A stretch of DNA of 22,793 bases from Saccoglossus kowalevskii (taxonomy: Eukaryota; Hemichordata; Enteropneusta; Harrimaniidae). The notes beneath the pieces are model-generated. The model saw nothing but the letters and a program-made list of their open reading frames with translations, had not been told where the DNA came from and ran no database searches. The DNA is taken from the NCBI RefSeq assembly GCF_000003605.2, contig NW_003132785.1, positions 1 to 22,793 on the forward strand. The letters run 5' to 3'. A program made the position numbers and the translations under genes. Numbering within the stretch: position 1 is the stretch's first letter; the number at the start of each line of letters is the position of its first letter. Positions 1 through 22,697 of the stretch are shown in pieces.

Positions 1-61
1 AATTTGTTTGCCCAAAAGCTCATCACACCTGCTCAGTTGTGTAAAGTATGAATTTCTCTCC
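1..61. repeat. Degenerate left-edge unit of the array
   Basis: Bases 1-31 align without gaps to the AATTT...CACCTG part of the unit, but 11 of the 31 positions differ. From about 25 onward the sequence returns to consensus (CACACCTGCTCAGTTGTG). Terminal units of satellites are typically the most diverged because they escape homogenisation, so a true array boundary probably lies at or just left of base 1. The next unit (about 32-111) carries TAAAGTATG followed by CAAAATG, a pairing that recurs near 8029-8110 and 12128-12200. Confidence 0.7.
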
Positions 62-211
62 CAAAATGCATTGTACATCTGCTCAGTTGTGTAAAATATG
101 AATTTCTCTCCCATAATGCATTGTACACCTGTTCAGTGGTGTAAAATATGAATTTCTCTCCCATAATGCATTGTACACCTGTTCAGTTGTGTAAAATAAG
201 AATTTCTCTCC

Positions 212-510
212 CATAATGCATTGTACACCTGTTCAGTGGTGTAAAATATGAATTTCTCTCCCATAATGCATTGTACACCTGCTTAGTTGTGTAAAATATG
301 AATTTCTCTCCCATAATGCATTGTACACCTGCTCAGTTGTGTAAAATATGAATTTCTCTCCATAATGCATTGTACACCTGCTCAGTTGTGTAAAATATGA
401 ATTTCTCTCCCATAATGCATTGTACACCTTTTCAGTGGTGTAAAATATGAATTTCTCCCCCATAATGCATTGTACACCTGCTCAGTTGTGTAAAATATGA
501 ATTTCTCTCT
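212..510. repeat. 49-bp-marker module, copy 1
   Basis: The order of variants is TTCAGTGG, CTTAGTTG, CTCAGTTG ending in a 49-bp unit (one C lost before ATAATG, new anchor at 361), CTCAGTTG, TTCAGTGG with CTCCCCC, then CTCAGTTG with CTCTCTC. The same string with the same one-base deletion recurs elsewhere in the array, so this is a duplicated block and not independent mutation. Confidence 0.75.
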
Positions 511-760
511 CATAATGCATTGTACACCTGCTCAGTAGTGTAAAATATGAATTTCTCTCCCATAATGCATTGTACACCTGCTCAGTAGTGTAAAATATGA
601 ATTTCTCTTCCATAATGCATTGTACACCTGCTCAGTGGTGTAATATATGAATTTCTCTCCCATAATGCATTGTACACCTGCTCAGTTGTGTAAAATATGA
701 ACTTCTCTTCCATAATGCATTGTACACCTGCTCGGTGGTGTAAAGTATGAATTTCTCTCC

Positions 761-1160
761 CATAATGCATTGTACACCTGCTCTGGGGTGTAAAATATGA
801 ATTTCTCTCCCATAATGCATTGTACACCTGCTCAGTGGTGTAAAATATGCACTTCTCTCCCATAATGAATTGTACACCTGCTCTGGGGTGTAAAGAATGA
901 ATTTCTCTCCCATAATGCATTGTACACCTGCTCAGTGGTGTAAAATATGAATTTCTCTCCCATAATGCATTGTACACCTGTTCAGTAGTGTAAAATATGA
1001 ATTTCTCTCCCATAATGCATTGTACACCTGCTCAGTTGTGTAAAATTTGAGTTTCTCTCCCATAATGCATTGTACACCTGCTCAGTGGTGTAAAGTATGA
1101 ATTTCTCTCCCATAATGCATTGTACACCTGTTCAGTGGTGTAAAATATGAATTTCTCTCC
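761..1160. repeat. Eight-unit GCACTT/AAATTTGAG module, copy 1
   Basis: The order is CTCTGGGG; CTCAGTGG with TATGCACTT; CTCTGGGG with TAAAGAATG; CTCAGTGG; TTCAGTAG; CTCAGTTG with TAAAATTTGAG; CTCAGTGG with TAAAGTATG; TTCAGTGG. The identical order occurs at 13704-14103, offset 12943 bp. Because several of these variants are uncommon, their joint order marks a long-range duplication. Confidence 0.8.
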
Positions 1161-1459
1161 CATAATGCATTGTACACCTGCTCAGTTGTGTAAAATATGA
1201 ATTTCTCTCCATAATGCATTGTACACCTGCTCAGTTGTGTAAAATATGAATTTCTCTCCCATAATGCATTGTACACCTGTTCAGTGGTGTAAAATATGAA
1301 TTTCTCCCCCATAATGCATTGTACACCTGCTCAGTTGTGTAAAATATGAATTTCTCTCTCATAATGCATTGTACACCTGCTCAGTTTTGTAAAATATGAA
1401 TTTCTCTCCCATAATGCTTTGTACACCTGTTCAGTAGTGTAAAATATGAATTTCTCTCC
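1111..1459. repeat. 49-bp-marker module, copy 2
   Basis: The unit 1161-1209 is 49 bp. It is followed by CTCAGTTG, TTCAGTGG with CTCCCCC, CTCAGTTG with CTCTCTC, CTCAGTTT, and a unit with GCTTTG plus TTCAGTAG. The rare GCTTTG unit also closes the copy near 11806-12104, so those two copies are especially close relatives. Confidence 0.75.
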
Positions 1460-2309
1460 CATAATGCATTGTACACCAGTTCAGTGGTGTAAAATATGAA
1501 TTTCTCTCTCATAATGCATTGTACACCTGTTCAGTAGTGTAAAATATAAATTTCTCTCCCATAATGCATTGTACACATGTTCAGAGGTGTAAAATATGAA
1601 TTTCTCTCCCATAATGCATTGTACACCTGTTCAGTGGTGTAAAATATGAATTTCTCTCCCATAATGCATTGTACACCTGTTCAGTGGTGTAAAATATGAA
1701 TTTCTCTCCCATAATGCATTGTACACCTGTTCAGTAGTGTAAAATATGAATTTCTCTCCCATAATGCATTGTACACCTGTTCAGAGGTGTAAAATATGAA
1801 TTTCTCTCCCATAATGCATTGTACACCTGTTCAGTGGTGTAAAATATGAATTCCTCTCCCATAATGCATTGTACACCTGCTCAGTTGTGTAAAATATGAA
1901 TTTCTCTCCCATAATGCATTGTACACCTGCTCAGTTGTGTAAAATATGAATTTCTCTCCCATAATGCATTGTACTTCTGCTCAGTGGCGTAAAATATGAA
2001 TTTCTCTCCCATAATGCATTGTACACCTGCTCAGTGGTGTAAAATATGAACTTCTCTTCCATAATGCATTGTACACCTGCTCAGTTGTGTAAAATATGAA
2101 TTTCTCTCCCATAATGCATTGTACACCTGCTCAGTAGTGTAAAGTATGAATTTCTCTCCCATAATGCATTGTACACCTGTTCAGTTGTGTAAAATATGAA
2201 TTTCTCTCCCATAATGCATTGTACACCTGCTCAGTGGGGTAAAATATGAATTTCTCTTCCATAATGCATTGTACTCCTGTTCAGTAGTGTAAAATATGAA
2301 TTTCTCTTC

Positions 2310-2559
2310 CATAATGCATTGTACACCTGCTCAGTGGTGTAAAATATGAACTTCTCTTCCATAATGCATTGTACACCTGCTCAGTTGTGTAAAATATGAA
2401 TTTCTCTCCCATAATGCATTGTACACCTGCTCAGTAGTGTAAAGTATGAATTTCTCTCCCATAATGCATTGTACACCTGCGCAGTGGTGTAAAATATGAA
2501 TTTCTCTCCCATAATGCATTGTACACCCGCTCAGTTGTGTAAAATATGAATTTCTCTCC
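2310..2559. repeat. AACTTCTCTTCC/GCGCAG/CCCGCTC module, copy 1
   Basis: Five units run CTCAGTGG with AACTTCTCTTCC; CTCAGTTG; CTCAGTAG with TAAAGTATG; TGCGCAGTGG; CCCGCTCAGTTG. The adjacent rare changes GCGCAG and CCCGCTC recur together at 11506-11605. A related three-unit string begins 300 bp upstream at 2010. Confidence 0.75.
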
Positions 2560-3705
2560 CATAATGCATTGTACACCTGCTCAGTAGTGTAAAGTATGAA
2601 TTTCTCTCCCATAATGCATTGTACACCTGCTCAGTGGTGTAAAATATGAATTTCTCTCCCATAATGCATTGTACACCTGCTCAGTTGTGTAAAATATGAA
2701 CTTCTCTCCCATAATGCATTGTACACCTGCTCAGTAGTGTAAAATATGAATTTCTCTCCCATAATGCATTATACACCTGCTCAGTGGTGTAAAATATGCA
2801 TTTCTCTCCCATAATGCATTGTACACCTGCTCAGTAGTGTAAAATATGAATTTCTCTCCCATAATGCATTGTACACCTGTTCAGTGGTGTAAAATATGAA
2901 TTTCTCTTCCATAATGCATTGTACACCTGCACTGGGGTGTAAAATATGAATTTCTCTCCCATAATGCATTGTACACCTGTTCAGTGTTGTAAAATATGAA
3001 TTTCTCTCCCATAATGCATTGTACACCAGCTCAGTTGTGTAAAATATGAATTTCTCTCCCATAATGCATTGTACACCTGTTCAGTGGTGTAAAATATGAA
3101 TTTCTCTCCCATAATGCATTGTACACCTGTTCAGTAGTGTAAAATATGAATTTCTCTCCCATAATGCATTGTACACCTGTTCAGAGGTGTAAAATATGAA
3201 TTTCTCTCCCATAATGCATTGTACACCTGTTCAGTGGTGTAAAATATGAATTTATCTCCCATAATGCATTGTACACCTGTTCAGTTGTGTAAAATATGAA
3301 TTTCTCTCCCATAATGCATTGTACTCCTGTTCAGTGGTGTAAAATATGAATTTCTTTCCCATAATGCATTGTACACCTGCTCTGGGGTGTAAAATATGAA
3401 TTTCTTTCCCATAATGCATTGTACACCTGCTCAGTGGTGTAAAATATGAATTTCTCTCCCATAATGCATTGTACACCTGCTCAGTGGTGTAAAATATGAA
3501 TTTCTCTCCCATAATGCATTGTACACCTGCTCAGTTGTGTAAAATATGAATTTCTCTCCCATAATGCATTGTACACATGCTCAGTAGTGTAAAATATGAA
3601 TTTCTCTCCCATAATGCATTGTACACCTGTTCAGTAGTGTAAAATATGAATTTCTCTCCCATAATGCATTGTACACCTGCTCAGTTGTGTAAAATATGAG
3701 TTTCT

Positions 3706-3723
3706 CTCCCATAATGCATTGTA
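3706..3723 (+). promoter_or_regulatory. STAF/ZNF143-like motif at the unit junction (representative site)
   Basis: CTCCCATAATGCATTGTA spans the last four bases of one unit and the first fourteen of the next. Against the recalled STAF/ZNF143 consensus YWCCCRNMATSCMYYRCR it matches at 17 of 18 positions; the one mismatch is T for C at position 17. ZNF143/STAF is an animal zinc-finger activator of Pol II and Pol III snRNA-type promoters and is linked to promoter-anchored chromatin loops. The site recurs in most of the 455 units. It is weakened where CCC becomes TCC, CTC, CGC or loses a C. Binding is not shown, and the match may come from chance amplification of one ancestral sequence. Confidence 0.35.
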
Positions 3724-3759
3724 CACCTGCTCAGTTGTGTAAAATATGAATTTCTCTCC
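3710..3759. repeat. Reference unit identical to the consensus
   Basis: This unit matches the consensus at all 50 positions and can serve as the type unit. It contains two short palindromes, AATGCATT (unit 4-11, an NsiI site) and TGTACA (unit 11-16, a BsrGI site). It also has an E-box CACCTG at 15-20, an A/T-rich stretch at 31-44 and a pyrimidine run TTTCTCTCCC that crosses the unit junction. On the plus strand TAA (3-5), TAA (31-33) and TGA (38-40) close all three frames. On the minus strand the only stop is TGA, from TCA at 22-24. Confidence 0.95.
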
Positions 3760-4309
3760 CATAATGCATTGTACACCTGCTCAGTTGTGTAAAATATGAA
3801 TTTCTTTCCCATAATGCATTGTACACCTGCTCAGTTGTGTAAAATATGAATTTCTCTTCCATAATGCATTGTACACCTGTTCAGTCGTGTAAAATATGAA
3901 TTTCTCTCCCATAATGCATTGTACACCTGCTCAGTTGTGTAAAATATGAATTTCTCTCCCATAATGCATTGTACACCTGCTCAGTAGTGTAAAATATGAA
4001 TTTCTCTCCCATAATGCATTGTACACATGCTCAGTGGTGTTAAATATGAATTTCTCTCCCATAATACATTGTACACCTGCTCAGTAGTGTAAAATATGAA
4101 TTTCTCTCCCATAATGCATTGTACACCTGCTCAGTGGTGTTAAATATGAATTTCTTTCCCATAATGCATTGTACACCTGCTCAGTTGTGTAAAATATGAA
4201 TTTCTCTTCCATAATGCATTGTACACCTGTTCAGTTGTGTAAAATATGAATTTCTCTCCCATAATGCATTGTACACCTGCTCAGTAGAGTAAAATATGAA
4301 TTTCTCTCC

Positions 4310-4659
4310 CATAATGCATTGTACACATGCTCAGTGGTGTTAAATATGAATTTCTCTCCCATAATACATTGTACACCTGCTCAGTTGTGTAAAATATGCA
4401 TTTCTCTCCCATAATGCATTGTACACCTGTTCAATGGTGTAAAATATGAATTTATCTCCCATAATGCATTGTACACCTGCTCAGTTGTGTAAAATATGAA
4501 TTTCTCTCCCATAATGCATTGTACACCTGCTCTGGGGTGTAAAGAATGAATTTCTCTCCCATAATGCATTGTACACCTGCTCGGTGGTGTAAAATATGAA
4601 TTTCTCTCCCATAATGCATTGTACACCTGCTCAGTTGTGTAAAATTTGAGTTTCTCTCC
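4310..4659. repeat. ACATGCTC/AAAGAATG module, copy 1
   Basis: The order is ACATGCTCAGTGG with GTTAAATATG; CTCAGTTG with TATGCATTT; TTCAATGG; CTCAGTTG; CTCTGGGG with TAAAGAATG; CTCGGTGG; CTCAGTTG with TAAAATTTGAG. Five related strings occur in the window (here and near 16552, 18752, 20150 and 22398). Confidence 0.75.
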
Positions 4660-4859
4660 CATAATGCATTGTACACCTGCTCAGTTGTGTAAAATATGAA
4701 TTTCTCTCCCATAATGCATTGTACACCTGCTCAGTTGTGTAAAATATGAGTTTCTCTCCCATAATGCATTGTACACCTGCTCAGTAGTGTAAAATATGAA
4801 TTTCTCTCCCATAATGCATTGTACACCTGTTCACTAGTGTAAAGTATGAATTTCTCTCC

Positions 4860-5309
4860 CATAATGCATTGTACACCTGTTCAGTAGTGTAAAATATGAA
4901 TTTCTCTTTCATAATGCATTGTACACCTGTTCAGTAGTGTAAAATATGAATTTCTCTCCCATAATGCATTGTACACCTGCTCTGAGGTGTAAAATAAGAA
5001 TTTCTCTCCCATAATGCATTGTACACCTGTTCAGTGGTGTAAAATATGAATTTCTCTCCCATAATGCATTGTACACCTGTTCAGTGAGGTAAAATATGAA
5101 TTTCTCTCCCATAATGCATTGTACACCTGCTCAGTTGTGTAAAATATGAATTTCTCTCCCATAATGCATTGTACACCTGCTCAGTGGTGTTAAATATGAA
5201 TTTCTTTCCCATAATGCATTGTACACCTGCTCAGTTGTGTAAAATATGAATTTCTATTCCATAATGCATTGTACACCTGTTCAGTGGTGTAAAATATGAA
5301 TTTCTCTCC
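4860..5309. repeat. CTCTGAGG/CAGTGAGG module, copy 1
   Basis: The order is TTCAGTAG with CTCTTTC; TTCAGTAG; CTCTGAGG with AAAATAAG; TTCAGTGG; TTCAGTGAGG; CTCAGTTG; CTCAGTGG with GTTAAATATG and CTTTCCC; CTCAGTTG; TTCAGTGG. CTCTTTC and CAGTGAGG are rare and recur in the same order 1050 bp downstream. Confidence 0.8.
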
Positions 5310-5909
5310 CATAATGCATTGTACACCTGCTCAGTTGTGTAAAATATGAATTTCTCTCCCATAATGCATTGTACACCTGCTCAGTAGTGTAAAATATGAA
5401 TTTCTCTCCCATAATGCATTGTACACCTGTTCAGTAGTGTAAAATATGAATTTCTCTCCCATAATGCATTGTACACCTGCTCAGTTGTGTAAAATTTGAG
5501 TTTCTCTCCCATAATGCATTGTACACCTGCTCAGTTGTGTAAAATATGAATTTCTCTCCCATAATGCATTGTACACCTGCTCAGTAGTGTAAAATATGAA
5601 TTTCTCTCCCATAATGCATTGTACACCTGCTCTGGCGTGTAAAATAAGAATTTCTCTTCCATAATGCATTGTACACCTGTTCAGTGGTGTAAAATATGAA
5701 TTTCTCTCCCATAATGCATTCTACACCTGTTCAGTGGTGTTAAATATGAATTTCTTTCCCATAATGCATTGTACACCTGCTCAGTTGTGTAAAATATGAA
5801 TTTCTCTTCCATAATGCATTGTACACCTGTTCAGTGGTGTAAATTATGAATTTCTCTCCCATAATGCATTGTACACCTGCTCAGTAGTGTAAAATATGAA
5901 TTTCTCTCC

Positions 5910-6409
5910 CATAATGCATTGTACACCTGTTCAGTAGTGTAAAATATGAATTTCTCTTTCATAATGCATTGTACACCTGTTCAGTAGTGTAAAATATGAA
6001 TTTCTCTCCCATAATGCATTGTACACCTGCTCTGAGGTGTAAAATATGAATTTCTCTCCCATAATGCATTGTACACCTGTTCAGTGGTGTAAAATATGAA
6101 TTTCTCTCCCATAATGCATTGTACACCTGTTCAGTGAGGTAAAATATGAATTTCTCTCCCATAATGCATTGTACACCTGCTCAGTTGTGTAAAATATGAA
6201 TTTCTCTCCCATAATGCATTGTACACCTGCTCAGTAGTGTAAAATATGAATTTCTCTCCCATAATGCATTGTACACCTGCTCAGTGGTGTTAAATATGAA
6301 TTTCTTTCCCATAATGCATTGTACACCTGCTCAGTTGTGTAAAATATGAATTTCTCTTCCATAATGCATTGTACACCTGTTCAGTGGTGTAAAATATGAA
6401 TTTCTCTCC
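5910..6409. repeat. CTCTGAGG/CAGTGAGG module, copy 2
   Basis: The first six units match 4860-5159 at an offset of 1050 bp (21 units). One CTCAGTAG unit is then inserted, and the GTTAAATATG/CTTTCCC, CTCAGTTG and TTCAGTGG units follow at an offset of 1100 bp. A third relative at 6610-6859 shares TAAAGTATG and CTCTGAGG with AAAATAAG, but not CAGTGAGG. Confidence 0.8.
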
Positions 6410-7209
6410 CATAATGCATTGTACACCTGCTCAGTTGTGTAAAATATGAATTTCTCTCCCATAATGCATTGTACACCTGTTCAGTAGTGTAAAATATGAA
6501 TTTCTCTCCCATAATGCATTGTACACCTGTTCAGTAGGGTAAAATATGAATTTCTCTCCCATAATGCATTGTACACCTGCTCAGTAGTGTAAAATATGAA
6601 TTTCTCTCCCATAATGCATTGTACACCTGTTCAGTAGTGTAAAGTATGAATTTCTCTCCCATAATGCATTGTACACCTGTTCAGTAGTGTAAAATATGAA
6701 TTTCTCTCCCATAATGCATTGTACACCTGTTCAGTAGTGTAAAATATGAATTTCTCTCCCATAATGCATTGTACACCTGCTCTGAGGTGTAAAATAAGAA
6801 TTTCTCTCCCATAATGCATTGTACACCTGTTCAGTGGTGTAAAATATGAATTTCTCTCCCATAATGCATTGTACACCTGTTCAGTGGTGTAAAATATGAA
6901 TTTCTCTCCCATAATGCATTGTACACCTGTTCAGTAGTGTAAAATATGAATTTCTCTCCCATAATGCATTGTACACCTGTTCAGTAGTGTAAAATATGAA
7001 TTTCTCTCCCATAATGCATTGTACACCTGTTCAGTAGTGTAAAATATGAATTTCTCTCCCATAATGCATTGTACACCTGTTCAGTAGTGTAAAATATGAA
7101 TTTCTCTCCCATAATGCATTGTACACATGCTCAGTAGTGTAAAATAGGAATTTCTCTCCCATAATGCATTGTACACTTGTTCAGTGGTGTAAAATATGAA
7201 TTTCTCTCC

Positions 7210-7261
7210 CATAATGCATTGTACACCTGTTCATTGGTTGTAAAAATATGAATTTCTCTCC
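7210..7261. repeat. Only 52-bp unit of the array
   Basis: The segment TCATTGGTTGTAAAAATATG replaces TCAGTGGTGTAAAATATG, adding one T in the variable core and one A in the A-run, with G-to-T at unit position 25. The neighbouring units are normal. Two homopolymer-adjacent insertions in a single unit could be genuine or a sequencing/polishing error. Confidence 0.7.
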
Positions 7262-7561
7262 CATAATGCATTGTACACCTGTTCAGTGTTGTAAAATATG
7301 AATTTCTCTCCCATAATGCATTGTACACCAGCTCAGTTGTGTAAAATATGAATTTCTCTCCCATAATGCATTGTACACCAGTTCAGTGGTGTAAAATATG
7401 AATTTCTCTCCCATAATGCATTGTACACCTGTTCAGTAGTGTAAAATATGAATTTCTCTCCCATAATGCATTGTACACATGTTCAGAGGTGTAAAATATG
7501 AATTTCTCTCCCATAATGCATTGTACACCTGTTCAGTGGTGTAAAATATGAATTTCTCTCC

Positions 7562-8010
7562 CATAATGCATTGTACACCTGTTCAGTGGTGTAAAATATG
7601 AATTTCTCTCGCATAATGCATTGTACACCTGTTCAGTGGTGTAAAATATGAATTTCTCTCCCATAATGCATTGTACACCTGCTCAGTTGTGTAAAATATG
7701 AATTTCTCTCCCATAATGCATTGTACACCTGCTCAGTTGTGTAAAATATGAATTTCTCTCCATAATGCATTGTACACCTGCTCAGTTGTGTAAAATATGA
7801 ATTTCTCTCCCATAAGGCATTGTACACCTGTTCAGTGGTGTAAAATATGAATTTCTCCCCCATAATGCATTGTACACCTGCTCAGTTGTGTAAAATATGA
7901 ATTTCTCTCTCATAATGCATTGTACACCTGCTCAGTTGTGTAAAATATGAATTTCTCTCCCATAATGCATTGTACACTTGTTCAGTAGTGTAAAATATGA
8001 ATTTCTCTCC
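7562..8010. repeat. 49-bp-marker module, copy 3
   Basis: Two TTCAGTGG units, the first ending CTCTCGC, are followed by CTCAGTTG, CTCAGTTG (49 bp, new anchor 7761), CTCAGTTG, TTCAGTGG with CTCCCCC, CTCAGTTG with CTCTCTC, CTCAGTTG and TTCAGTAG. This is the fullest version of the module. Another 49-bp unit of the same kind (new anchor 8160) lies just downstream in a less complete copy. Confidence 0.75.
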
Positions 8011-8809
8011 CATAATGCATTGTACACCTGCTCAGTTGTGTAAAGTATGAATTTCTCTCCCAAAATGCATTGCACACCTGCTCAGTTGTGTAAAATATGA
8101 ATTTCTCTCCCATAATGCATTGTACACCTGTTCAGTGGTGTAAAATATGAATTTCTCTCCATAATGCATTGTACACCTGCTCAGTTGTGTAAAATATGAA
8201 TTTCTCTCCCATAATGCATTGTACACCTGCTCAGTTGTGTAAAATATGAATTTCTCTCCCATAATGCATTGTACACCTGTTCAGTGGTGTAAAATATGAA
8301 TTTCTCTTCCAAAATGCATTGTACACCTGCTCAGTTGTGTAAAATATGAATTTCTCTCCCATAATGCATTGTACACCTGCTCAGTTGTGTAAAATATGAA
8401 TTTCTCTCCCATAATGCATTGTACACCTGCTCAGTGGTGTAAAATATGAATTTCTCTCCCATAATGCATTGTACACCTGCTCAGTGGTGTTAAATTTGTA
8501 GTTCTCTCCCATAATGCATTGTACACCTGCTCAGTTGTGTAAAATATGAATTTCTCTCCCATAATGCATTGTACACCTGCTCAGTGGTGTAAAATATGAA
8601 TTTCTCTCCCATAATGCATTGTACACCTGTTCAGTGGTGTAAAATATGAATTTCTCTCCCATAATGCATTGTACACCTGCTCAGTTGTGTAAAATATGAA
8701 TTTCTCTCCCATAATGCATTGTACACCTGCTCAGTTGTGTAAAATATGCATTTCTCTCCCATAATGCATTGTACACCTGCTCAGTGGTGTAAAATATGAA
8801 TTTCTCTCG

Positions 8810-9257
8810 TATAATGCATTGTACACCTGTTCAGTGGTGTAAAATATGAATTTCTCTCGCATAATGCATTGTACACCTGTTCAGTGGTGTAAAATATGAA
8901 TTTCTCTCCCATAATGCATTGTACACCTGCTCAGTTGTGTAAAATATGAATTTCTCTCCCATAATGCATTGTACATCTGCTCAGTTGTGTAAAATATGAA
9001 TTTCTTTCCATAATGCATTGTACACCTGCTCAGTTGTGTAAAATATGAATTTCTCTCCCATAATGCATTGTACACCTGTTCAGTGGTGTAAAATATGAAT
9101 TTCTCCCCATAATGCATTGTACACCTGCTCAGTTGTGTAAAATATGAATTTCTCTCTCATAATGCATTGTACACCTGCTCAGTTGTGTAAAATATGAATT
9201 TCTCTCCCATAATGCATTGTACACCTGTTCAGTAGTGTAAAATATGAATTTCTCTCC
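8810..9257. repeat. 49-bp-marker module, copy 4, with two 49-bp units
   Basis: It has the same order as the copy at 7562-8010, beginning with CTCTCGC/CTCTCGT-type ends. Units 8960-9008 and 9059-9107 are both 49 bp. The first ends CTTTCC and lost a C in the usual place; in the second, CTCCCCC has become CTCCCC. It continues with CTCAGTTG plus CTCTCTC, CTCAGTTG and TTCAGTAG. Confidence 0.75.
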
Positions 9258-9456
9258 CATAATGCATTGTACACCTGCTCAGTTGTGTAAAATATGAATT
9301 TCTCTCCATAATGCATTGTACACCTGCTCAGTTGTGTAAAATATGAATTTCTCTCCCATAATGCATTGTACACCTGTTCAGTGGTGTAAAATATGAATTT
9401 CTCCCCCATAATGCATTGTACACCTGCTCAGTTGTGTAAAATATGAATTTCTCTCC

Positions 9457-9805
9457 CATAATGCATTGTACACCTGTTCAGTGGTGTAAAATATGAATTT
9501 CTCTCGCATAATGCATTGTACACCTGTTCAGTGGTGTAAAATATGAATTTCTCTCCCATAATGCATTGTACACCTGCTCAGTTGTGTAAAATATGAATTT
9601 CTCTCCCATAATGCATTGTACACCTGCTCAGTTGTGTAAAATATGAATTTCTCTCCATAATGCATTGTACACCTGCTCAGTTGTGTAAAATATGAATTTC
9701 TCTCCCATAATGCATTGTACACCTGTTCAGTGGTGTAAAATATGAATTTCTCCCCCATAATGCATTGTACACCTGCTCAGTTGTGTAAAATATGAATTTC
9801 TCTCC
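9457..9805. repeat. 49-bp-marker module, copy 5
   Basis: It repeats the order TTCAGTGG with CTCTCGC, TTCAGTGG, CTCAGTTG, CTCAGTTG (49 bp, new anchor 9656), CTCAGTTG, TTCAGTGG with CTCCCCC, CTCAGTTG. A shorter version directly upstream (49-bp unit 9258-9306) lies 349 bp earlier, pointing to a local tandem duplication of seven units. Confidence 0.75.
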
Positions 9806-10255
9806 CATAATGCATTGTACACCTGCTCAGTGGTGTAAAATATGAATTTCTCTCCCATAATGCATTGTACACCTGCTCAGTGGTGTTAAATATGAATTTC
9901 TCTCCCATAATGCATTGTACACCCGCTCAGTTGTGTAAAATATGAATTTCTCTCCCATAATGTATTGTACACCTGCTCAGTAGTGTAAAGTATGAATTTC
10001 TCTCCCATAATGCATTGTACACCTGCTCAGTGGTGTAAAATATGAATTTCTCTCCCATAATGCATTGTACACCTGCTCAGTTGTGTAAAATATGAATTTC
10101 TCTCCCATAAGGCATTGTACACCTGCTCAGTAGTGTAAAATATGAATTTCTCTCCCATAATGCATTGTACACCTGCTCAGTAGTGTAAAATATGAATTTC
10201 TCTCCCATAATGCATAGTACACCTGTTCAGTGGTGTAAAATATGAATTTCTCTTC

Positions 10256-10455
10256 CATAATGCATTGTACACCTGCTCTGGGGTGTAAAATATGAATTTC
10301 TCTCCCATAATGCATTGTACACCTGTTCAGTGTTGTAAAATATGAATTTCTCTCCCATAATGCATTGTACACCTGCTCTGGGGTGTAAAATATGAATTTC
10401 TCTCCCATAATGCATTGTACACCTGTTCAGTGTTGTAAAATATGAATTTCTCTCC
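10256..10455. repeat. Local two-unit tandem duplication
   Basis: The pair CTCTGGGG then TTCAGTGTTG occurs twice in immediate succession (10256-10355 and 10356-10455). Single copies of the same pair, or of a close variant, occur elsewhere (14554-14653, 15603-15702). A recent 100-bp slippage or crossover event is the simplest reading. Confidence 0.75.
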
Positions 10456-11105
10456 CATAATGCATTGTACACCTGTTCAGTGGTGTAAAATATGAATTTC
10501 TCTCCCATAATGCATTGTACACCTGTTCAGTAGTGTAAAATATGAATTTCTCTCCCATAATGCATTGTACACCTGTTCAGAGGTGTAAAATATGAATTTC
10601 TCTCCCATAATGCATTGTACACCTGTTCAGAGGTGTAAAATATGAATTTATCTCCCATAATGCATTGTACACCTGTTCAGTTGTGTAAAATATGAATCTC
10701 TCTCCCATAATGCATTGTACACCTGTTCAGAGGTGTAAAATATGAATTTCTCTCCCATAATGCATTGTACACCTGTTCAGTGGTGTAAAATATGAATTTA
10801 TCTCCCATAATGCATTGTACACCTGCTCAGTTGTGTAAAATATGAATTTCTCTCCCATAATGCATTGTACACCTGTTCAGTTGTGTAAAATATGAATTTA
10901 TCTCCCATAATGCATTGTACACCTGTTCAGTTGTGTAAAATATGAATTCCTCTCCCATAAGGCATTGTACACCTGCTCAGTTGTGTAAAATATGAATTTC
11001 TCTCCCATAATGCATTGTACACCTGTTCAGTGGTGTAAAATATGAATTTATCTCCCATAATGCATTGTACACCTGCTCAGTTGTGTAAAATATGAATTTC
11101 TCTCC

Positions 11106-11605
11106 CATAATGCATTGTACACCTGTTCAGTTGTGTAAAATATGAATTTCTCTTCCATAATGCATTGTACACCTGTTCAGTTGTGTAAAATATGAATTTC
11201 TCTCCCATAATGCATTGTACACCTGCTCAGTTGTGTAAAATATGAATTTCTCTCCCATAATGCATTGTACACCTGCTCAGTTGTGTAAAATATGAATTTC
11301 TCTCCCATAATGCATTGTACTCCTGCTCAGTGGCGTTAAATTTGTATTTCTCTCCCATAAAGCATTGTACACCTGTTCAGAGGTGTAAAATATGAACTTC
11401 TCTTCCATAATGCATTGTACACCTGCTCAGTGGTGTAAAATATGAATTTCTCTCCCATAATGCATTGTACACCTGCTCAGTAGTGTAAAATATGAATTTC
11501 TCTCCCATAATGCATTGTACACCTGCGCAGTGGTGTAAAATATGAATTTCTCTCCCATAATGCATTGTACACCCGCTCAGTTGTGTAAAATATGAATTTC
11601 TCTCC
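11106..11605. repeat. GGCGTTAAATTTG module joined to the GCGCAG/CCCGCTC module
   Basis: TTCAGTTG with CTCTTCC, TTCAGTTG and two CTCAGTTG units lead into a unit with TACTCC, GGCGTT and TTTGTATTT (11306-11355) and then a CATAAAGC unit. This order recurs at 20900-21199, offset 9794 bp. From 11356, the AACTTCTCTTCC, GCGCAG and CCCGCTC units match 2310-2559. Two duplicated blocks therefore overlap here. Confidence 0.75.
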
Positions 11606-11705
11606 CATAATGCATTGTACACCTGTTCAGTGGTGTAAAATATGAATTTATCTCCCATAATGCATTGTACACCTGCTCAGTTGTGTAAAATATGAATTTC
11701 TCTCC

Positions 11706-12104
11706 CATAATGCATTGTACACCTGCTCAGTGGTGTTAAATTTGTAGTTCTCTCCCATAATGCATTGTACACCTGCTCAGTTGTGTAAAATATGAATTTC
11801 TCTCCCATAATGCATTGTACACCTGCTCAGTTGTGTAAAATATGAATTTCTCTCCATAATGCATTGTACACCTGCTCAGTTGTGTAAAATATGAATTTCT
11901 CTCCCATAATGCATTGTACACCTGTTCAGTGGTGTAAAATATGAATTTCTCCCCCATAATGCATTGTACACCTGCTCAGTTGTGTAAAATATGAATTTCT
12001 CTCTCATAATGCATTGTACACCTGCTCAGTTGTGTAAAATATGAATTTCTCTCCCATAATGCTTTGTACACCTGTTCAGTAGTGTAAAATATGAATTTCT
12101 CTCC
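11706..12104. repeat. 49-bp-marker module, copy 6
   Basis: A unit with GTTAAATTTGTAG is followed by CTCAGTTG, CTCAGTTG (49 bp, 11806-11854), CTCAGTTG, TTCAGTGG with CTCCCCC, CTCAGTTG with CTCTCTC, CTCAGTTG and a GCTTTG/TTCAGTAG unit. From the 49-bp unit onward it matches 1161-1459 in order and in the rare GCTTTG change, about 10.6 kb away. Confidence 0.75.
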
Positions 12105-12654
12105 CATAATGCATTGTACACCTGCTCAGTTGTGTAAAGTATGAATTTCTCTCCCAAAATGCATTGTACCCCTGCTCAGTTGTGTAAAATATGAATTTCT
12201 CTCCCATAATGCATTGTACACCTGTTCAGTGGTGTAAAATATGAATTTCTCTCCCATAATGCATTGTACACCTGCTCAGTTGTGTAAAATATGAATTTCT
12301 CTCCCATAATGCATTGTACACCTGCTCAGTTGTGTAAAATATGAATTTCTCTCCCATAATGCATTGTACACCAGCTCAGTTGTGTAAAATATGAATTTCT
12401 CTCCCATAATGCATTGTACACCTGCTCAGTTGTGTAAAATATGAATTTCTCTCCCATAATGCATTGTACACCTGCTCAGTTGTGTAAAATATGAATTTCT
12501 CTCCCATAATGCATTGTACACCTGCTCAGTGGTGTTAAATTTGTAGTTCTCTCCCATAATGCATTGTACACCTGCTCAGTTGTGTAAAATATGAATTTCT
12601 CTCCCATAATGCATTGTACACCTGCTCAGTTGTGTAAAATATGATTTTCTCTCC

Positions 12655-12854
12655 CAAAAGGAATTGAACCCCTGCTCATAGGGGTAATATATAAATTTCT
12701 CTCCCTTATGGCATTGAACACCTGTTCGGGGTGGTAAAAATTAAATTTCTCTCCCTTATGGCTTTGTACTCCTGCTCATGGGGGTAAAATTTAAATTTCT
12801 CTCCCATAAGGCATTGAACCCCTGCTCATTTGGGAAAAATATGAATTTCTCTTC
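12655..12854. repeat. Four-unit diverged island inside the array
   Basis: Four consecutive units differ from the consensus at 11, 13, 11 and 7 positions, about 21% over 200 bp. All four stay exactly 50 bp and in phase. Differences are shared: G at unit position 6 and G at 29 in all four; A at 13 in units 1, 2 and 4; T at 25 in units 1, 3 and 4; A at 39 in units 1-3; and CCCTTATGGC at the start of units 2 and 3. The flanking units return sharply to near-consensus. The shared substitutions and absence of indels suggest an old or separate subfamily rather than random long-read error, though a poorly polished assembly patch is possible. The STAF-like motif is disrupted in these units. Confidence 0.85.
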
Positions 12855-13703
12855 CATAATGCATTGTACACCTGCTCATTGGTGTAAAATATGAATTTCT
12901 CTCCCATAATGCATTGTACACCTGCTCAGTTGTGTAAAATTTGAATTTCTCTCCCATAATGCATTGTACACCTGCTCAGTGGTGTAAAATATGAATTTCT
13001 CTCCCATAATGCATTGTACACTGCTCAGTAGTGTAAAATATGAATTTCTCTCCCATAATGCATTGTACACCTGTTCAGTGGTGTAAAATATGAATTTCTC
13101 TCCCATAATGCATTGTACACCTGTTCAGTTGTGTAAAATATGAATTTCTCTCCCATAATGCATTGTACACTTGTTCAGTTGTGCAAAATATGAATTTCTC
13201 TCCCATAATGCATTGTACACCTGTTCAGTAGTGTAAAATATGAATTTCTCTCCCATAATGCATTGTACACCTGTTCAGTGGTGTAAAATATGAATTTCTC
13301 TCCCATAATGCATTGTACACCTGTTCAGTGGTGCAAAATATGAATTTCTCTCCCATAATGCATTGTACACCTGTTCAGTTGTGTAAAATATGAATTTCTC
13401 TCCCATAATGCATTGTACACCTGCTCAGTTGTGTAAAATATGAATTTCTCTCCCATAATGCATTGTACACCTGTTCAGTTGTGTAAAATATGAATTTCTC
13501 TTCCATAATGCATTGTACACCTGTTCAGTTGTATAAAATATGAATTTCTCTTCCATAATGCATTGTACACCTGCTCAGTTGTGTAAAATATGAATTTCTC
13601 TCCCATAATGCATTGTACACCTGCTCAGTGGTGTAAAATATGAATTTCTCTCTCATAATGCATTGTACACCTGTTCAGTGGTGTAAAATATGAATTTCTT
13701 TCC

Positions 13704-14103
13704 CATAATGCATTGTACACCTGCTCTGGGGTGTAAAATATGAATTTCTCTCACATAATGCATTGTACACCTGCTCAGTGGTGTAAAATATGCACTTCTC
13801 TCCCATAATGCATTGTACACCTGCTCTGGGGTGTAAAGAATGAATTTCTCTCCCATAATGCATTGTACACCTGCTCAGTGGGGTAAAATATGAATTTCTC
13901 TCCCATAATGCATTGTACACCTGTTCAGTAGTGTAAAATATGAATTTCTCTCCCATAATGCATTGTACACCTGCTCAGTTGTGTAAAATTTGAGTTTCTC
14001 TCCCATAATGCATTGTACACCTGCTCAGTGGTGTAAAGTATGAATTTCTCTCCCATAATGCATTGTACACCTGTTCAGTGGTGTAAAATATGAATTTCTC
14101 TCC
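13704..14103. repeat. Eight-unit GCACTT/AAATTTGAG module, copy 2
   Basis: It repeats the order seen at 761-1160 unit by unit. The few differences include CTCTCAC before the second unit, CAGTGGGG instead of CAGTGGTG in the fourth, and a consensus GCATTG where copy 1 has GAATTG. A shorter relative (first four units) is at 15803-16051, where the last unit is 49 bp. Confidence 0.8.
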
Positions 14104-14253
14104 CATAATGCATTGTACTCCTGCTCAGTAGTGTAAAATATGAATTTCTCTCCCATAATGCATTGTACACCTGCTCAGTGGTGTAAAATATGAATTTCTC
14201 TCCCATAATGCATTGTACACCTGCTCAGTGGTGTAAAATATGAATTTCTCTTC

Positions 14254-14653
14254 CATAATGCATTGTACACCTGCTCAGTAGTGTAAAGTATGAATTTCTC
14301 TCCCATAATGCATTGTACACCTGCTCAGTGGTGTAAAGAATGAATTTCTCTCCCATAATGCATTGTACACCTGCTCAGTGATGTAAAATATGCACTTCTC
14401 TCCCATAATGCATTGTACACCTGCTCTGGGGTGTAAAGAATGAATTTCTCTCCCATAATGTATTGTACACCTGCTCAGTAGTGTAAAGTATGAATTTCTC
14501 TCCCATAATGCATTGTACACCTGCTCAGTGGTGTAAAATATGAATTTCTCTCCCATAATGCATTGTACACCTGCTCTGGGGTGTAAAATATGAATTTCTT
14601 TCCCATAATGCATTGTACACCTGTTCAGTGTTGTAAAATATGAATTTCTCTCC
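14254..14653. repeat. AAAGTATG/CAGTGATG module, copy 1
   Basis: The order is CTCAGTAG with TAAAGTATG; CTCAGTGG with TAAAGAATG; CTCAGTGATG with TATGCACTT; CTCTGGGG with TAAAGAATG; CTCAGTAG with TAAAGTATG; CTCAGTGG; CTCTGGGG with CTTTCCC; TTCAGTGTTG. The CAGTGATG-plus-GCACTT unit recurs with the same neighbours 899 bp downstream. Confidence 0.8.
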
Positions 14654-15152
14654 CATAATGCATTGTACACCAGCTCAGTTGTGTAAAATATGAATTTCTC
14701 TCCCATAATGCATTGTACACCTGTTCAGTGGTGTAAAATATGAATTTCTCTCCCATAATGCATGTACACCTGTTCAGTAGTGTAAAATATGAATTTCTCT
14801 CCCATAATGCATTGTACACCTGTTCAGTGGTGTAAAATATGAATTTCTCTCCCATAATGCATTGTACACCTGTTCAGTGGTGTAAAATATGAATTCCTCT
14901 CCCATAATGCATTGTACACCTGTTCAGTTGTGTAAAATATGAATTTCTCTCCCATAATGCATTGTACACCTGCTCTGGGGTGTAAAGAATGAATTTCTCC
15001 CCCATAATGCATTGTACACCTGCTCAGTAGTGTAAAGTATGAATTTCTATCCCATAATGCATTGTACACCTGCTCAGTGGTGTAAAATATGAATTTCTCT
15101 CCCATAATGCATTGTACACCTGCTCAGTTGTGTAAAATATGAATTTCTCTCC

Positions 15153-15702
15153 CATAATGCATTGTACACCTGCTCAGTAGTGTAAAGTATGAATTTCTCT
15201 CCCATAATGCATTGTACACCTGCTCAGTGGTGTAAAGAATGAATTTCTCTCCCATAATGCATTGTACACCTGCTCAGTGATGTAAAATATGCACTTCTCT
15301 CCCATAATGCATTGTACACCTGCTCTGGGGTGTAAAGAATGAATTTCTCTCCCATAATGCATTGTACACCTGCTCAGTAGTGTAAAGTATGAATTTCTCT
15401 CCCATAATGCATTGTACACCTGCTCAGTGGTGTAAAATATGAATTTCTCTCCCATAATGCATTGTACACCTGCTCAGTTGTGTAAAATATGAATTTCTCT
15501 CCCATAATGCATTGTACACCTGCTCAGTAGTGTAAAATATGAATTTCTCTCCCATAATGCATTGTACACCTGTTCAGTGGTGTAAAATATGAATTTCTCT
15601 CCCATAATGCATTGTACACCTGCTCTGGGGTGTAAAATATGAATTTCTTTCCCATAATGCATTGTACACCTGTTCAGTGTTGTAAAATATGAATTTCTCT
15701 CC
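15153..15702. repeat. AAAGTATG/CAGTGATG module, copy 2
   Basis: The first six units repeat 14254-14553 in order at an offset of 899 bp (18 units minus the base lost in the 49-bp unit 14754-14802). Three units (CTCAGTTG, CTCAGTAG, TTCAGTGG) are then present that copy 1 lacks. The CTCTGGGG/CTTTCCC and TTCAGTGTTG units follow. This is a clear footprint of whole-unit gain or loss after duplication. Confidence 0.8.
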
Positions 15703-16551
15703 CATAATGCATTGTACACCTGTTCAGTGGTGTAAAATATAAATTTCTCTCCCATAATGCATTGTACACCTGTTCAGTGGTGTAAAATATGAATTTCTTT
15801 CCCATAATGCATTGTACACCTGCTCTGGGGTGTAAAATATGAATTTCTCTCCCATAATGCATTGTACACCTGCTCAGTGGTTTAAAATATGCACTTCTCT
15901 CCCATAATGCATTGTACACCTGCTCTGGGGTGTAAAGAATGAATTTCTCTCCCATAATGCATTGTACACCTGCTCAGTGGTGTAAAATATGAATTTCTCT
16001 CCCATAATGCATGTACACCTGTTCAGTTGTGTAAAATATGAGTTTCTCTACCATAATGCATGGTACACCTGCTCAGTTGTGTAAAATATGAATTTCTGTC
16101 CCATAATGCATTGTACACCTGGTCAGTGGTGTAAAGTATGAATTTCTGTCCCATAATGCATTGTACACCTGTTCAGTGGTGTAAAATATGAATTTCTGTC
16201 CCATAATGCATTGTACACCCGCTGTGGGGTGTAAAAAATGAATTTCTCTCCCATAATGCATTGTACACCTGTTCAGGGGTGTAAAATATGAATTTCTCTC
16301 CCATAATGCATTGTACACCTGCTCAGTGGTGTAAAATATGAATTTCTCTTCCATAATGCATTGTACACCAGTTCAGTAGTGTAAAATATGAATTTCTCTC
16401 CCATAATGCATTGTACACCTGCTCAGGGGTGTAAAATATGAATTTCTCTCCCATAATGCATTGTACACCTGCTCAGTTGTGTAAAATATGAATTTCTCTC
16501 CCATAATGCATTGTACACCTGCTCAGTAGTGTAAAATATGAATTTCTCTCC

Positions 16552-16951
16552 CATAATGCATTGTACACATGCTCAGTGGTGTTAAATATGAATTTCTCTC
16601 CCATAATGCATTGTACACCTGCTCAGTTGTGTAAAATATGCATTTCTCTCCCATAATGCATTGTACACCTGTTCAGTGGTGTAAAATATGAATTTCTCTC
16701 CCATAATGCATTGTACACCTGCTCAGTTGTGTAAAATATGAATTTCTCTCCCATAATGCATTGTACACCTGCTCTGGGGTGTAAAGAATGAATTTCTCTC
16801 CCATAATGCATTGTACACCTGCTCGGTGGTGTAAAATATGAATTTCTCTCCCATAATGCATTGTACACCTGTTCAGTAGTGTAAAATATGAATTTCTCTC
16901 CCATAATGCATTGTACACCTGCTCAGTTGTGTAAAATTTGAGTTTCTCTCC
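16552..16951. repeat. ACATGCTC/AAAGAATG module, copy 2
   Basis: It has the same order as 4310-4659, with one extra TTCAGTAG unit before the TAAAATTTGAG unit and TTCAGTGG in place of TTCAATGG. It lies exactly 2200 bp (44 units) upstream of the copy at 18752. Confidence 0.75.
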
Positions 16952-18751
16952 CATAATGCATTGTACACCTGCTCAGTTGTGTAAAATATGAATTTCTCTC
17001 CCATAATGCATTGTACACCTGCTCAGTTGTGAAAAATTTGAGTTTCTCTCCCATAATGCATTGTACACCTGCTCAGTTGTGTAAAATATGAATTTCTCTT
17101 CCATAATGCATTGTACACCTGTTCACTGTTGTAAAATATGAATTTCTCTCCCATAATGCATTGTACACCTGTTCAGTAGTGTAAAATATGAATTTCTCTC
17201 CCATAATGCATTGTACACCTGCTCAGTTGTGTAAAATATGAATTTCTCTCCCATAATGCATTGTACACCTGCTCAGTTGTGTAAAATATGAATTTCTCTC
17301 CCATAATGCATTGTACACCTGCTCAGTGGTGTAAAATATGAATTTCTCTCCCATAATGCATTGTACACCTGTTCAGTGGTGTAAAATATGAATTTCTCTC
17401 CCATAATGCATTGTACACCTGCAGTGGGGTGTAAAGAATGAATTTCTCTCCCATAATGCATTGTACACCTGCTCTGGGGTGTAAAATATGAATTTCGCTC
17501 CCATAATGCATTGTACACCTGCTCAGTGGTGTAAAATATGAACTTCTCTTCCATAATGCATTGTACACCAGTTCAGTAGTGTAAAATATGAATTTCTCTC
17601 CCATAATGCATTGTACACGTGCTCTGGGGTGTAAAATATGAATTTCTCTCCCATAATGCATTATACACCTGCTCAGTGGTGTAAAATATGCATTTCTCTC
17701 CCATAATGCATTGTACACCTGCTCAGTGGTGTAAAATATGAATTTCTCTCCAATAATGCATTGTACACCTGCTCAGTCGTGTAAAATACGAATTTCTCTC
17801 CCATAATGCATTGTACACCTGCTCAGTGGTGTAAAATATGAATTTCTCTCCCATAATGCATTGTACACCTGCTCAGTTGTGTAAAATATGAATTTCTCTC
17901 CCATAATGCATTGTACACCTGCTCAGTAGTGTAAAATATGAATTTCTCTCCCATAATGCATTGTACACCTGCTCTGGGGGTGTAAAATAAGAATTTCTCT
18001 CCCATAATGCATTGTACACCTGTTCAGTGGTGTAAAATATGAATTTCTCTCCCATAATGCATTGTACACCTGTTCAGTGGTGTAAAATATGAATTTCTCT
18101 CCCATAATGCATTGTACACCTGCTCAGTTGTGTAAAATATGAATTTCTCTCCCATAATGCATTGTACAGCTGCTCAGTAGTGTAAAATATGAATTTCTCT
18201 CCCATAATGCATTGTACACCTGCTTAGTGGTGTTAAATATGAATTTCTTTCCCATAATGCATTGTACACCTGCTCAGTTGTGTAAAATATGAATTTCTCT
18301 TCCATAATGCATTGTACACCTGTTCAGTGGTGTAAAATATGAATTTCTCTCCCATAATGCATTGTACACCTGCTCAGTTGTGTAAAATATGAATTTCTCT
18401 CCCATAATGCATTGTACACCTGCTCAGTAGTGTAAAATATGAATTTCTCTCCCATAATGCATTGTACACCTGCTCAGTTGTGTAAAATTTGAGTTTCTCT
18501 CCCATAATGCATTGTACACCTGCTCAGTTGTGTAAAATATGAATTTCTCTCCCATAATGCATTGTACACCTGCTCAGTTGTGTAAATATGAATTTCTCTC
18601 CCATAATGCATTGTACACCTGTTCAGTGGTGTAAAATATGAATTTCTCTCTCATAATGCATTGTACACCTGCTCAGTTGTGTAAAATATGAATTTCTCTC
18701 CCATAATGCATTGTACACCTGCTCAGTAGTGTAAAATATGAATTTCTCTCC

Positions 18752-19051
18752 CATAATGCATTGTACACATGCTCAGTGGTGTTAAATACGAATTTCTCTC
18801 CCATAATGCATTGTACACCTGCTCAGTTGTGTAAAATATGCATTTCTCTCCCATAATGCATTGTACACCTGTTCAATGGTGTAAAATATGAATTTCTCTC
18901 CCATAAGGCATTGTACACCTGCTCAGTTGTGTAAAATATGAATTTCTCTCCCATATTGCATTGTACACCTGCTCTGGGGTGTAAAGAATGAATTTCTCTC
19001 CCACAATGCATTGTACACCTGCTCGGTGGTGTAAAATATGAATTTCTCTCC
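18752..19051. repeat. ACATGCTC/AAAGAATG module, copy 3
   Basis: It shares the first six units in order, including TTCAATGG, CTCTGGGG with TAAAGAATG, and CTCGGTGG. It carries private changes: TAAATACG, CATAAGG, CATATTG and CACAATG. It then departs from the other copies with GTGTGAAATATG. Confidence 0.75.
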
Positions 19052-20149
19052 CATAATGCATTGTACACCTGCTCAGTGGTGTGAAATATGAATTTCTCTC
19101 CCACAATGCATTGTACACCTGCTCAGTGGTGTAAAATATGAATTTCTCTCCCATAATGCATTGTACACCTGTTCAGTAGTGTAAAATATGAATTTCTCTC
19201 CCATAATGCATTGTACACCTGTTCAGTAGTGCAAATATGAATTTCTCTCCCATAATGCATTGTACACCTGCTCAGTTGTGTAAAATATGAATTTCTCTCC
19301 CGTAATGCATTGTACACCTGTTCAGTAGTGTAAAATATGAATTTCTCTCCCATAATGCATTGTACACCTGCTCAGTTGTGTAAAATATGAATTTCTCTCC
19401 CATAATGCATTGTACACCTGCTCAGTTGTGTAAAATTTGAGTTTCCCTCTCATAATGCATTGTACACCTGCTCAGTTGTGTAAAATATGAATATCTCTCC
19501 CATAATGCATTGTACACCTGCTCAGTTGTGTAAAATATGAATTTCTCTCCCACAATGCATTGTACACCTGCTCAGTGGTGTAAAATATGAATTTCTCTCC
19601 CATAATGCATTGTACACCTATTCAGTGGTGTAAAATATGAATTTCTCTCCCATAATGCATTGTACACCTGCTCAGTTGTGTAAAATATGAATTTCTCTCC
19701 CATAATGCATTGTACACCTGCTCTGGGGTGTAAATATGAATTTCTCTCCCATAATGCATTGTACACCTGTTCAGTGTTGTAAAATATGAATTTCTCTCCC
19801 ATAATGCATTGTACACCTGCTCAGTGGCGTTAAATTTGTATTTCTCTCCCATAATGCATTGTACACCTGCTCAGTAGTGTAAAATATGCATTTCTCTCCC
19901 ATAATGCATTGTACACCTGCTCAGTGGTGTAAAAAATGAATTTCTCTCTCATAATGCATTGTACACCTGCTCAGTTGTGTAAAATATGAATTTCTCTCCC
20001 ATAATGCATTGTACACCTGCTCAGTGTTGTAAAATATGAATTTCTCTCCCATAATGCATTGTACACCTGCTCAGTAGTGTAAAGTATGAATTTCTCTCCC
20101 ATAATGCATTGTACACCTGCTCAGTGGTGTAAAATATGAATTTCTCTCC

Positions 20150-20549
20150 CATAATGCATTGTACACATGCTCAGTGGTGTAATATATGAATTTCTCTCCC
20201 ATAATGCATTGTACACCTGTTCAATGGTGTAAAATATGAATTTCTCTCCCATAATGCATTGTACACCTGCTCATTTGTGTAAAATATGAATTTCTCTCCC
20301 ATAATGCATTGTACACCTGCTCTGGGATGTAAAGAATGAATTTCTCTCCCATAATGCATTGTACACCTGCTCGGTGGTGTAAAATATGAATTTCTCTCCC
20401 ATAATGCATTGTACACCTGCTCAGTTGTGTAAAATTTGAGTTTCTCTCCCATAATGCATTGTACACCTGCTCAGTTGTGTAAAATATGAATTTCTCTCCC
20501 GTAATGCATTGTACACCTGCTCAGTTGTGTAAAATTTGAGTTTCTCTCC
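20150..20549. repeat. ACATGCTC/AAAGAATG module, copy 4
   Basis: ACATGCTCAGTGG with TAATATATG is followed directly by TTCAATGG, so the TATGCATTT unit is missing. Then come CTCATTTG, CTCTGGGA with TAAAGAATG, CTCGGTGG, TAAAATTTGAG, CTCAGTTG and TAAAATTTGAG. One unit has been lost relative to copies 1-3. Confidence 0.7.
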
Positions 20550-20899
20550 CATAATGCATTGTACACCTGCTCTGGGGTGAAAAATATGAATTTCTCTCCC
20601 ATAATGCATTGTACACCTGTTCAGTGATGTAAAATATGAATTTCTCTCCCATAATGCATTGTACACCAGCTCAGTTGTGTAAAATATGAATTTCTCTCCC
20701 ATAATGCATTGTACACCTGTTCAGTGGTGTAAAATATGAATTTCTCTCCCATAATGCATTGTACACCTGCTCTGGGGTGTAAAATATGAATTTCTCTCCC
20801 ATAATGCATTGTACACCTGTTCAGTTGTGTAAAATATGAATTTCTCTCCCATAATGCATTGTACACCTGCTCAGTTGTGTAAAATATGAATTTCTCTCC

Positions 20900-21199
20900 C
20901 ATAATGCATTGTACACCTGTTCAGTTGTGTAAAATATGAATTTCTCTTCCATAATGCATTGTACTCCTGTTCAGTTGTGTAAAATATGAATTTCTCTTCC
21001 ATAATGCATTGTACACCTGCTCAGTTGTGTAAAATATGAATTTCTCTCCCATAATGCATTGTACACCTGCTCAGTTGTGTAAAATATGAATTTCTCTCCC
21101 ATAATGCATTGTACTCCTGCTCAGTGGCGTTAAATTTGTATTTCTCTCCCATAAAGCATTGTACACCTGCTCAGTGGTGTAAAATATGAACTTCTCTCC
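20900..21199. repeat. GGCGTTAAATTTG module, copy 2
   Basis: TTCAGTTG with CTCTTCC, TACTCC/TTCAGTTG with CTCTTCC, two CTCAGTTG units, the TACTCC/GGCGTT/TTTGTATTT unit (21100-21149) and a CATAAAGC unit with AACTTCTC repeat the order found at 11106-11405. Confidence 0.75.
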
Positions 21200-21598
21200 C
21201 ATAATGCATTGTACACCTGCTCAGTTGTGTAAAATATGAATTTCTCTCCCATAATGCATTGTACACCTGCTCAGTGGTGTAAAATATGAATTTCTCTCCC
21301 ATAATGCATTGTACACCAGCTCAGTTGTGTAAAATATGAATTTCTCTCCCATAATGCATTGTACACCTGCTCAGTTGTGTAAAATATGAATTTCTCTCCC
21401 ATAATACATTGTACACCAGCTCAGTTGTGTAAAATATGAATTTCTCTCCCATAATGCATTGTACACCTGCTCAGTTGTGTAAAATATGAATTTCTCTCCC
21501 ATAATACATTGTACACCTGCTCAGTTGTGTAAAATATGAATTTCTCTCCATAATGCATTGTACTCATGCTCAGTTGTGTAAAATATGAATTTCTCTCC

Positions 21599-22647: not shown

Positions 22648-22697
22648 CATAATGCATTGTACACCTGCTCAGTTGTGTAAAATATGAATTTCTCTCC

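Follow-up and report, generated by a model that had tools for sequence, protein, structure and literature searches.

A 50-bp satellite of Saccoglossus kowalevskii carrying a near-consensus STAF/ZNF143 site, and its probable origin in a dispersed repeat

When the units of a tandem array each carry a sequence close to the binding site of a known factor, does the resemblance reflect chance, present use by the host or descent from another sequence? The question is raised here by an 18-bp STAF/ZNF143-like site that recurs across the unit junctions of a 50-bp array. The window, i.e. the whole stretch of DNA analysed, is 22,793 bp long and corresponds to an entire contig (G000:C2434) of the S. kowalevskii assembly (572 Mb, 4830 contigs). 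An earlier note on this DNA had proposed that such an array could act as a sponge for ZNF143, as a looping hub or as a promoter-like transcription platform.

The 50-bp array and its STAF/ZNF143-like site

TRF detected a single head-to-tail array in the window (25..22791, + strand), with a period of 50, 455.6 copies and 93% matches, the mean divergence from the consensus being about 4%. It has the features of satellite DNA, its unit being non-coding, homogenised and repeated head to tail over a long stretch. Four open frames of at least 100 aa lie inside it; three are 149 aa long, and the fourth, of 107 aa, runs off the end. Within the window no Rfam family matched at gathering score and no tRNA was found. 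Among the matches listed, C2821 (41.9 kb) and C4120 (82.2 kb) also carry the unit, which is thus present in at least two contigs besides this one. The stretches of these contigs that were read consist of the same array, except for the first ~390 bp of C4120; this non-array DNA marks an array edge. The ends of the window were rejected as edges because C2821, which has array at both ends, is similarly ragged at its start.

Higher-order repeats were not evident: the best lag identities were 0.9365-0.9387, compared with a mean of 0.9348 (lags 1-199), and no constant offset was seen for the 15 longest among the exact repeats listed (188-277 bp). A candidate hairpin or dyad in the unit (ATTGTACACC-TGCTCAGT-GGTGTAAAAT) was dropped, as 4.7% of 1500 shuffles reach its score and its closing C-G pair is retained in only 198/454 cases. 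Relatives of the satellite were sought with exact 19-24-mers in viral and genome contig collections and by blastn against phages and plasmids, all of which may omit the organism's own genome, and none was found; an 18-mer match in one viral contig (L001), which carries no such array, was taken as chance. Literature searches with strings of the unit returned papers unrelated by title. Of the papers that name both ZNF143 and satellite DNA, one speaks of LAVA elements in connection with ZNF143.

The site that drew attention, CTCCCATAATGCATTGTA, lies at 3706..3723 (+ strand) and starts in the unit at 3673..3722 (+ strand, unit position 1 being 3673). Compared to the STAF/ZNF143 consensus YWCCCRNMATSCMYYRCR, it fits at 17 of 18 positions, the sole mismatch being a T for C at position 17. 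The earlier note had given this consensus, and the same string appears in print in PMC5006282. Scanning the window with at most one mismatch gave 359 matches, compared to 0.10 on average over 100 shuffles, and all of the ~200 among the matches listed were on the + strand. When units were aligned, the 454 junctions between the 455 full units comprised 2 perfect copies and 358 with one mismatch (360 with at most one), 81 with 2-5 mismatches and 13 whose motif is interrupted by a deletion. The two perfect copies are at 8057..8074 (+ strand), found both by the window scan and in the unit-aligned count, and at 22244..22261 (+ strand), in the unit starting at 22211. Motif position 17 is off-consensus in the other 452 junctions. 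Both a near-consensus site at most junctions and its recurrence hundreds of times at 50-bp spacing, as the earlier note had described them, are therefore confirmed.

These copies are not independent, one unit having been copied, and chance was therefore tested at the level of the unit. Only 15 of 200,000 shuffled 50-bp units contained a match with at most one mismatch, and 1 of 60,000 column-permuted motifs fitted the unit as well as the real one. The matrix scan against shuffled units that the earlier note had suggested agrees with this: 2 of 40,000 shuffles reached the score of the unit, the matrix being a proxy derived from the IUPAC letters of the consensus. All these figures concern a single motif, where many other known motifs could have matched. 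The resemblance of the satellite unit to a ZNF143/STAF site is real.

According to PMC11118474, ZNF143 recognises a degenerate motif of 29 bases, and TGGGA is named there as the core. Longer, 27-base SBS strings are quoted in PMC7154149, and these agree with the site at 14/27 positions. The unit's best scores, 16/27 for SBS1 (P 0.013 against shuffled units) and 15/27 for SBS2 (P 0.074), exceed this value and so lie at another offset; shuffled units reach on average 12.8-12.9 at their best position. The ACTACA submotif 5′ of the core, relevant only to SBS2 and to THAP11-HCF1 recruitment, occurs in the window 0 times on the + strand and 3 times on the − strand, in no case within 15 bp 5′ of TCCCA. 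The M4 pattern is absent from both strands of the window.

Variation of the site within the array

The earlier note had proposed comparing substitution in the motif with that in the rest of the unit, and the outcome depends on the measure. Over the 455 units, variation per position is 1.7% in the 18 motif positions and 5.3% in the rest (p 0.033), and the lower motif variation persists with distinct units only (p 0.026) and by permutation at fixed place (P about 0.03). The value for the rest drops to 2.7% once its two most variable positions are removed. By alleles per position, motif and rest do not differ (p 0.24), nor do they by singletons (p 0.50). As a separate observation, most of the variation of the unit is held by positions 8 and 14, which depart from the consensus in 34% and 54% of units, respectively, and three letters are common at position 14.

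The CCCA contact core of the site (3708..3711, + strand) is intact, without motif deletion, in 390 of 454 junctions. In zebrafish, a site with an altered CCCA was reported to lose its footprint (PMC3282657, in extract). Here the three core Cs are off consensus in 9.0% (C36), 4.0% (C37) and 0.4% (C38) of units; C36 is thus the most variable motif position, followed by position 34 (4.4%) and then C37, and its variants, found in 41/455 units, are distributed along the whole array. Ranked for intactness among the 50 4-mers of the unit, CCCA comes 37th in the window, below the median 4-mer, 25th in C2821, where it stands at the median (0.893 vs 0.887), and 34th in C4120. Alleles that break the site are not depleted (23/28, compared to 25.1/33 expected from the non-motif spectrum; p 0.84). 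By these figures the contact core is not both intact and constrained. The variation profile recurs in C2821 (177 units) and in C4120 (728 units), with r 0.96-0.99.

Low variation is instead centred on a 15-bp box, CATAATGCATTGTAC (3710..3724, + strand; unit positions 38-50 and 1-2), which overlaps the motif and includes only one of the three core Cs. No other 15-mer of the unit varies as little in any of the three contigs (0.8-1.1%), and the box includes the palindromes AATGCATT and TGTACA. The satellite site departs from the consensus by one letter, and there is little to suggest that it is retained for a function. There is room for weak constraint, since the motif is less variable by two measures and CCCA lies at the median in C2821.

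Exact sites and a dispersed repeat of about 62 bp

Matches to the consensus are not confined to this array. The exact consensus occurs 1081 times (532+549) in the 572 Mb, compared to 9 (4+5) for a reversed control pattern, a 120-fold excess. Of the first 100 exact sites in contig order, a subset that was not drawn at random, 56 share one string type, [CT]TCCCA[TCG]AATGCATTGCA. The other 44 comprise 39 distinct strings, where the control predicts about 1 site.

We read 20 stretches, mostly carrying the commonest string, and eight loci from the exact-site search, all selected for an exact site. At the loci read, the commonest string type forms part of a scattered repeat whose copies have diverged; its monomer measures about 62 bp and carries a perfect site (…TTGCA). 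The monomer starts with the exact consensus CTCCCATAATGCATTGCA, followed in L052 by CATATGTGCAGTAACATGCTCAGTAGTGCAAAATTTGAAGTTAT. One to about six copies are found in tandem per locus, with a monomer of 62 bp (L052 and L053), 60 bp (L054) or 63 bp (L050). Homology runs past one monomer, from −252 to −2 between L053 and L060 and from −134 to +60 between L048 and L064; overall it extends up to a few hundred bases, the longer pairs being about 67-88% identical. In these loci, monomers were also located by their site-free half: of 24, 19 are perfect (all preselected) and the 5 unselected ones have 1, 1, 1, 1 and 6 mismatches.

The 62-bp monomer, taken as the consensus of one locus (L052), aligns with the 50-bp satellite unit at 43/50 identical positions and one 12-bp gap. 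When the site is left out, none of 2000 shuffles scores as high as this alignment. An intermediate-looking copy with CATTGTACATGTGCTCAG is present at L066. Satellite and dispersed repeats thus have a monomer in common, as expected of a satellite derived from a mobile element.

A single family that copied one string accounts for part of the genome-wide excess. L047, which carries a non-commonest string, shares the left flank of the family and is a diverged member of it; L044, L045, L049 and L071 have no clear family flank in the part inspected. Promoters, the repeat family with its diverged members, or a combination of the two could account for the excess. Among five hand-picked loci with non-family exact sites, one site lies beside an E-box and one beside an ETS-like site; among 19 family loci there was one E-box, numbers too small to carry weight. 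A distinct 147-bp tandem duplication was also observed at two exact ZNF143-type consensus sites (L057, G000:C202:45600-47000).

Host factor, origin of the satellite and alternative readings

Whether the host uses such sites was examined at the genes where they might be expected. In the 500 bp upstream of tRNA-Sec (6 of the 11 loci over the cut-off) and of U6 (all 3 loci over the cut-off), nothing came closer to the consensus than 4 mismatches. Few independent promoters were sampled in this way, because five of the six tRNA-Sec loci are tandem copies that hardly differ from one another and two of the U6 loci look degenerate. Promoters of tRNA-Sec and U6 genes may also differ in invertebrates. 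Ten tRNA-Sec genes over the family cut-off are grouped at G000:C1591:112-9534 (loci L035-L039), several at ~1.3-kb spacing, and the eleventh is a single copy on C4068; such a tandem cluster of tRNA-Sec genes appears to be unusual. Another observation on decoding concerns COX1 (L043, G000:C4830:13523-14863), in which TGA is read as Trp and AGA/AGG codons are absent; its 10 ATA codons fall largely where Ile is expected. The TGA reading in COX1, the C2H2 zinc-finger frames and the presence of tRNA-Sec genes together suggest an animal genome.

ZNF143 itself was searched for with approximate finger sequences. These gave at least 194 and at least 176 C2H2 matches in the genome, with a best identity of 60% among the matches listed. 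No clear ZNF143 gene was found among the 150 of 514 and the 150 of 682 candidates that were scored, exons being matched singly; C2073, four further candidates and several top loci were inspected and none was convincing as ZNF143. Among 39 PDB sequences matched by these fingers at E 1e-20, there was no ZNF143 chain. The evidence on host use of such sites is mixed, the surplus of exact sites, some of it outside the family, being the point in favour.

We think it likely that the satellite is derived from a dispersed, probably mobile repeat and that its ZNF143-type site is a decaying relic, the array not being maintained for binding. The starting point would be the scattered ~62-bp monomer with its exact consensus, mobility being suggested by the dispersal of its copies. 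One such monomer would have lost 12 bp and changed C to T at site position 17, and would then have given rise to long 50-bp arrays, unequal exchange or rolling-circle amplification being the presumed mechanism. Since the dispersed copies have diverged from one another and those of the satellite are homogeneous, we regard the satellite as the derived form. Its site would thus be an inherited relic in the course of being lost. Weak residual binding by a ZNF143-like protein is plausible, and the perfect site of the parent repeat may have served as a promoter element.

On the window data, chance alone had been the favoured explanation. The genome count and the monomer homology weakened it, and it was retained as a rival in a broader form, in which the resemblance arose by coincidence either in the satellite or already in the source repeat, and no host protein ever bound it. 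Several findings agree with such a coincidence: the contact core is not constrained, the inspected tRNA-Sec and U6 loci have no site, and limited searches revealed no clear ZNF143 gene. In addition, a repeat copying one coincidental string would explain much of the genome-wide excess. Against it stand a unit-level chance of 1.7e-5 to 7.5e-5, although this is for one motif among many known ones, and the 44 exact sites of other strings, although some of these are diverged family members. We regard coincidence as unlikely. Still less probable is a constraint on the 15-bp box exerted by a different protein or by DNA structure. The CENP-B box of alpha satellite is a precedent for a conserved box in a satellite, and the low variation of the box in three contigs is in line with this, with a permutation P of 0.00025 to 0.04 depending on the measure, a test that is generous because copies share ancestry. 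The allele-count measure reaches only P 0.04, however, and no factor or centromere location is linked to the box; we give this constraint little credence.

The functional roles proposed in the earlier note fare poorly. On the sponge or transcription-platform reading, hundreds of in-register sites would bind a host ZNF143-like protein, and the array would titrate the factor or start transcripts. The abundance of near-consensus junctions, the degenerate motif reported for ZNF143 and a possible vocabulary of sites outside the repeat family (the 44 exact sites of other types) can be cited in its favour, together with the report that the satellites HSat2 and HSat3 act as factor sponges (PMC12771815, in extract). 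The ranks of CCCA in the three contigs, the site-breaking alleles and the loss of the consensus letter at position 17 speak against it, as do the poor agreement with the 27-base strings and the absence of ACTACA 5′ of the site, and ZNF143-CTCF motif pairs within mouse B2 repeats were reported to be unbound (PMC11687419, in extract). The looping hub has lost ground, since in the same source ZNF143 loss had no effect on loops and the link was traced to an antibody cross-reacting with CTCF. The promoter platform is weakened because ACTACA is absent beside the site and the core is not kept. By analogy a sponge is possible in principle; a working sponge or transcription platform nevertheless seems to us very unlikely. 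A bolder combination would have the mobile repeat spreading hundreds of perfect ZNF143/STAF sites and seeding near-site satellites, with a host factor binding both, the family rewiring promoters and the satellites buffering free factor; we consider it highly improbable.

A satellite arising from a mobile repeat, the origin that we favour, is of a kind already known from Helitron-linked satellites of bivalves (PMC8268682, in extract). CgiSat and the central repeats of Helitrons/Helentrons in Crassostrea gigas, described in that source, likewise form arrays of short monomers. These lie within dispersed elements, and some arrays of that monomer family also stand on their own. The present unit differs in its size (50/62 bp) and its exact ZNF143-type site, and the element is recognised by dispersal and monomer homology, not by ends or class. 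Set beside the STAF/ZNF143 SBS1 sites of PMC5006282 and PMC7154149 (both in extract), the satellite agrees at 17/18 positions and the dispersed monomer at 18/18; the satellite differs by its T at position 17, by its agreement over the longer string and by its tandem arrangement at 50 bp, and it lacks the ACTACA that is a feature of SBS2. It shares with HSat2/HSat3 (PMC12771815) a long tandem array and a possible factor-binding unit, but those arrays are multi-megabase in size, far above the ~147 kb to which the three array-bearing contigs add up here.

A match to a factor site in a satellite is easily due to chance. Here the history of the match can be traced: the satellite with its near-site shares descent with a dispersed repeat in which the ZNF143-type site is exact. 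If the site of the parent repeat is bound, the repeat would be carrying a housekeeping-promoter element to new places in an animal genome, and the satellite would be a decaying by-product of it.
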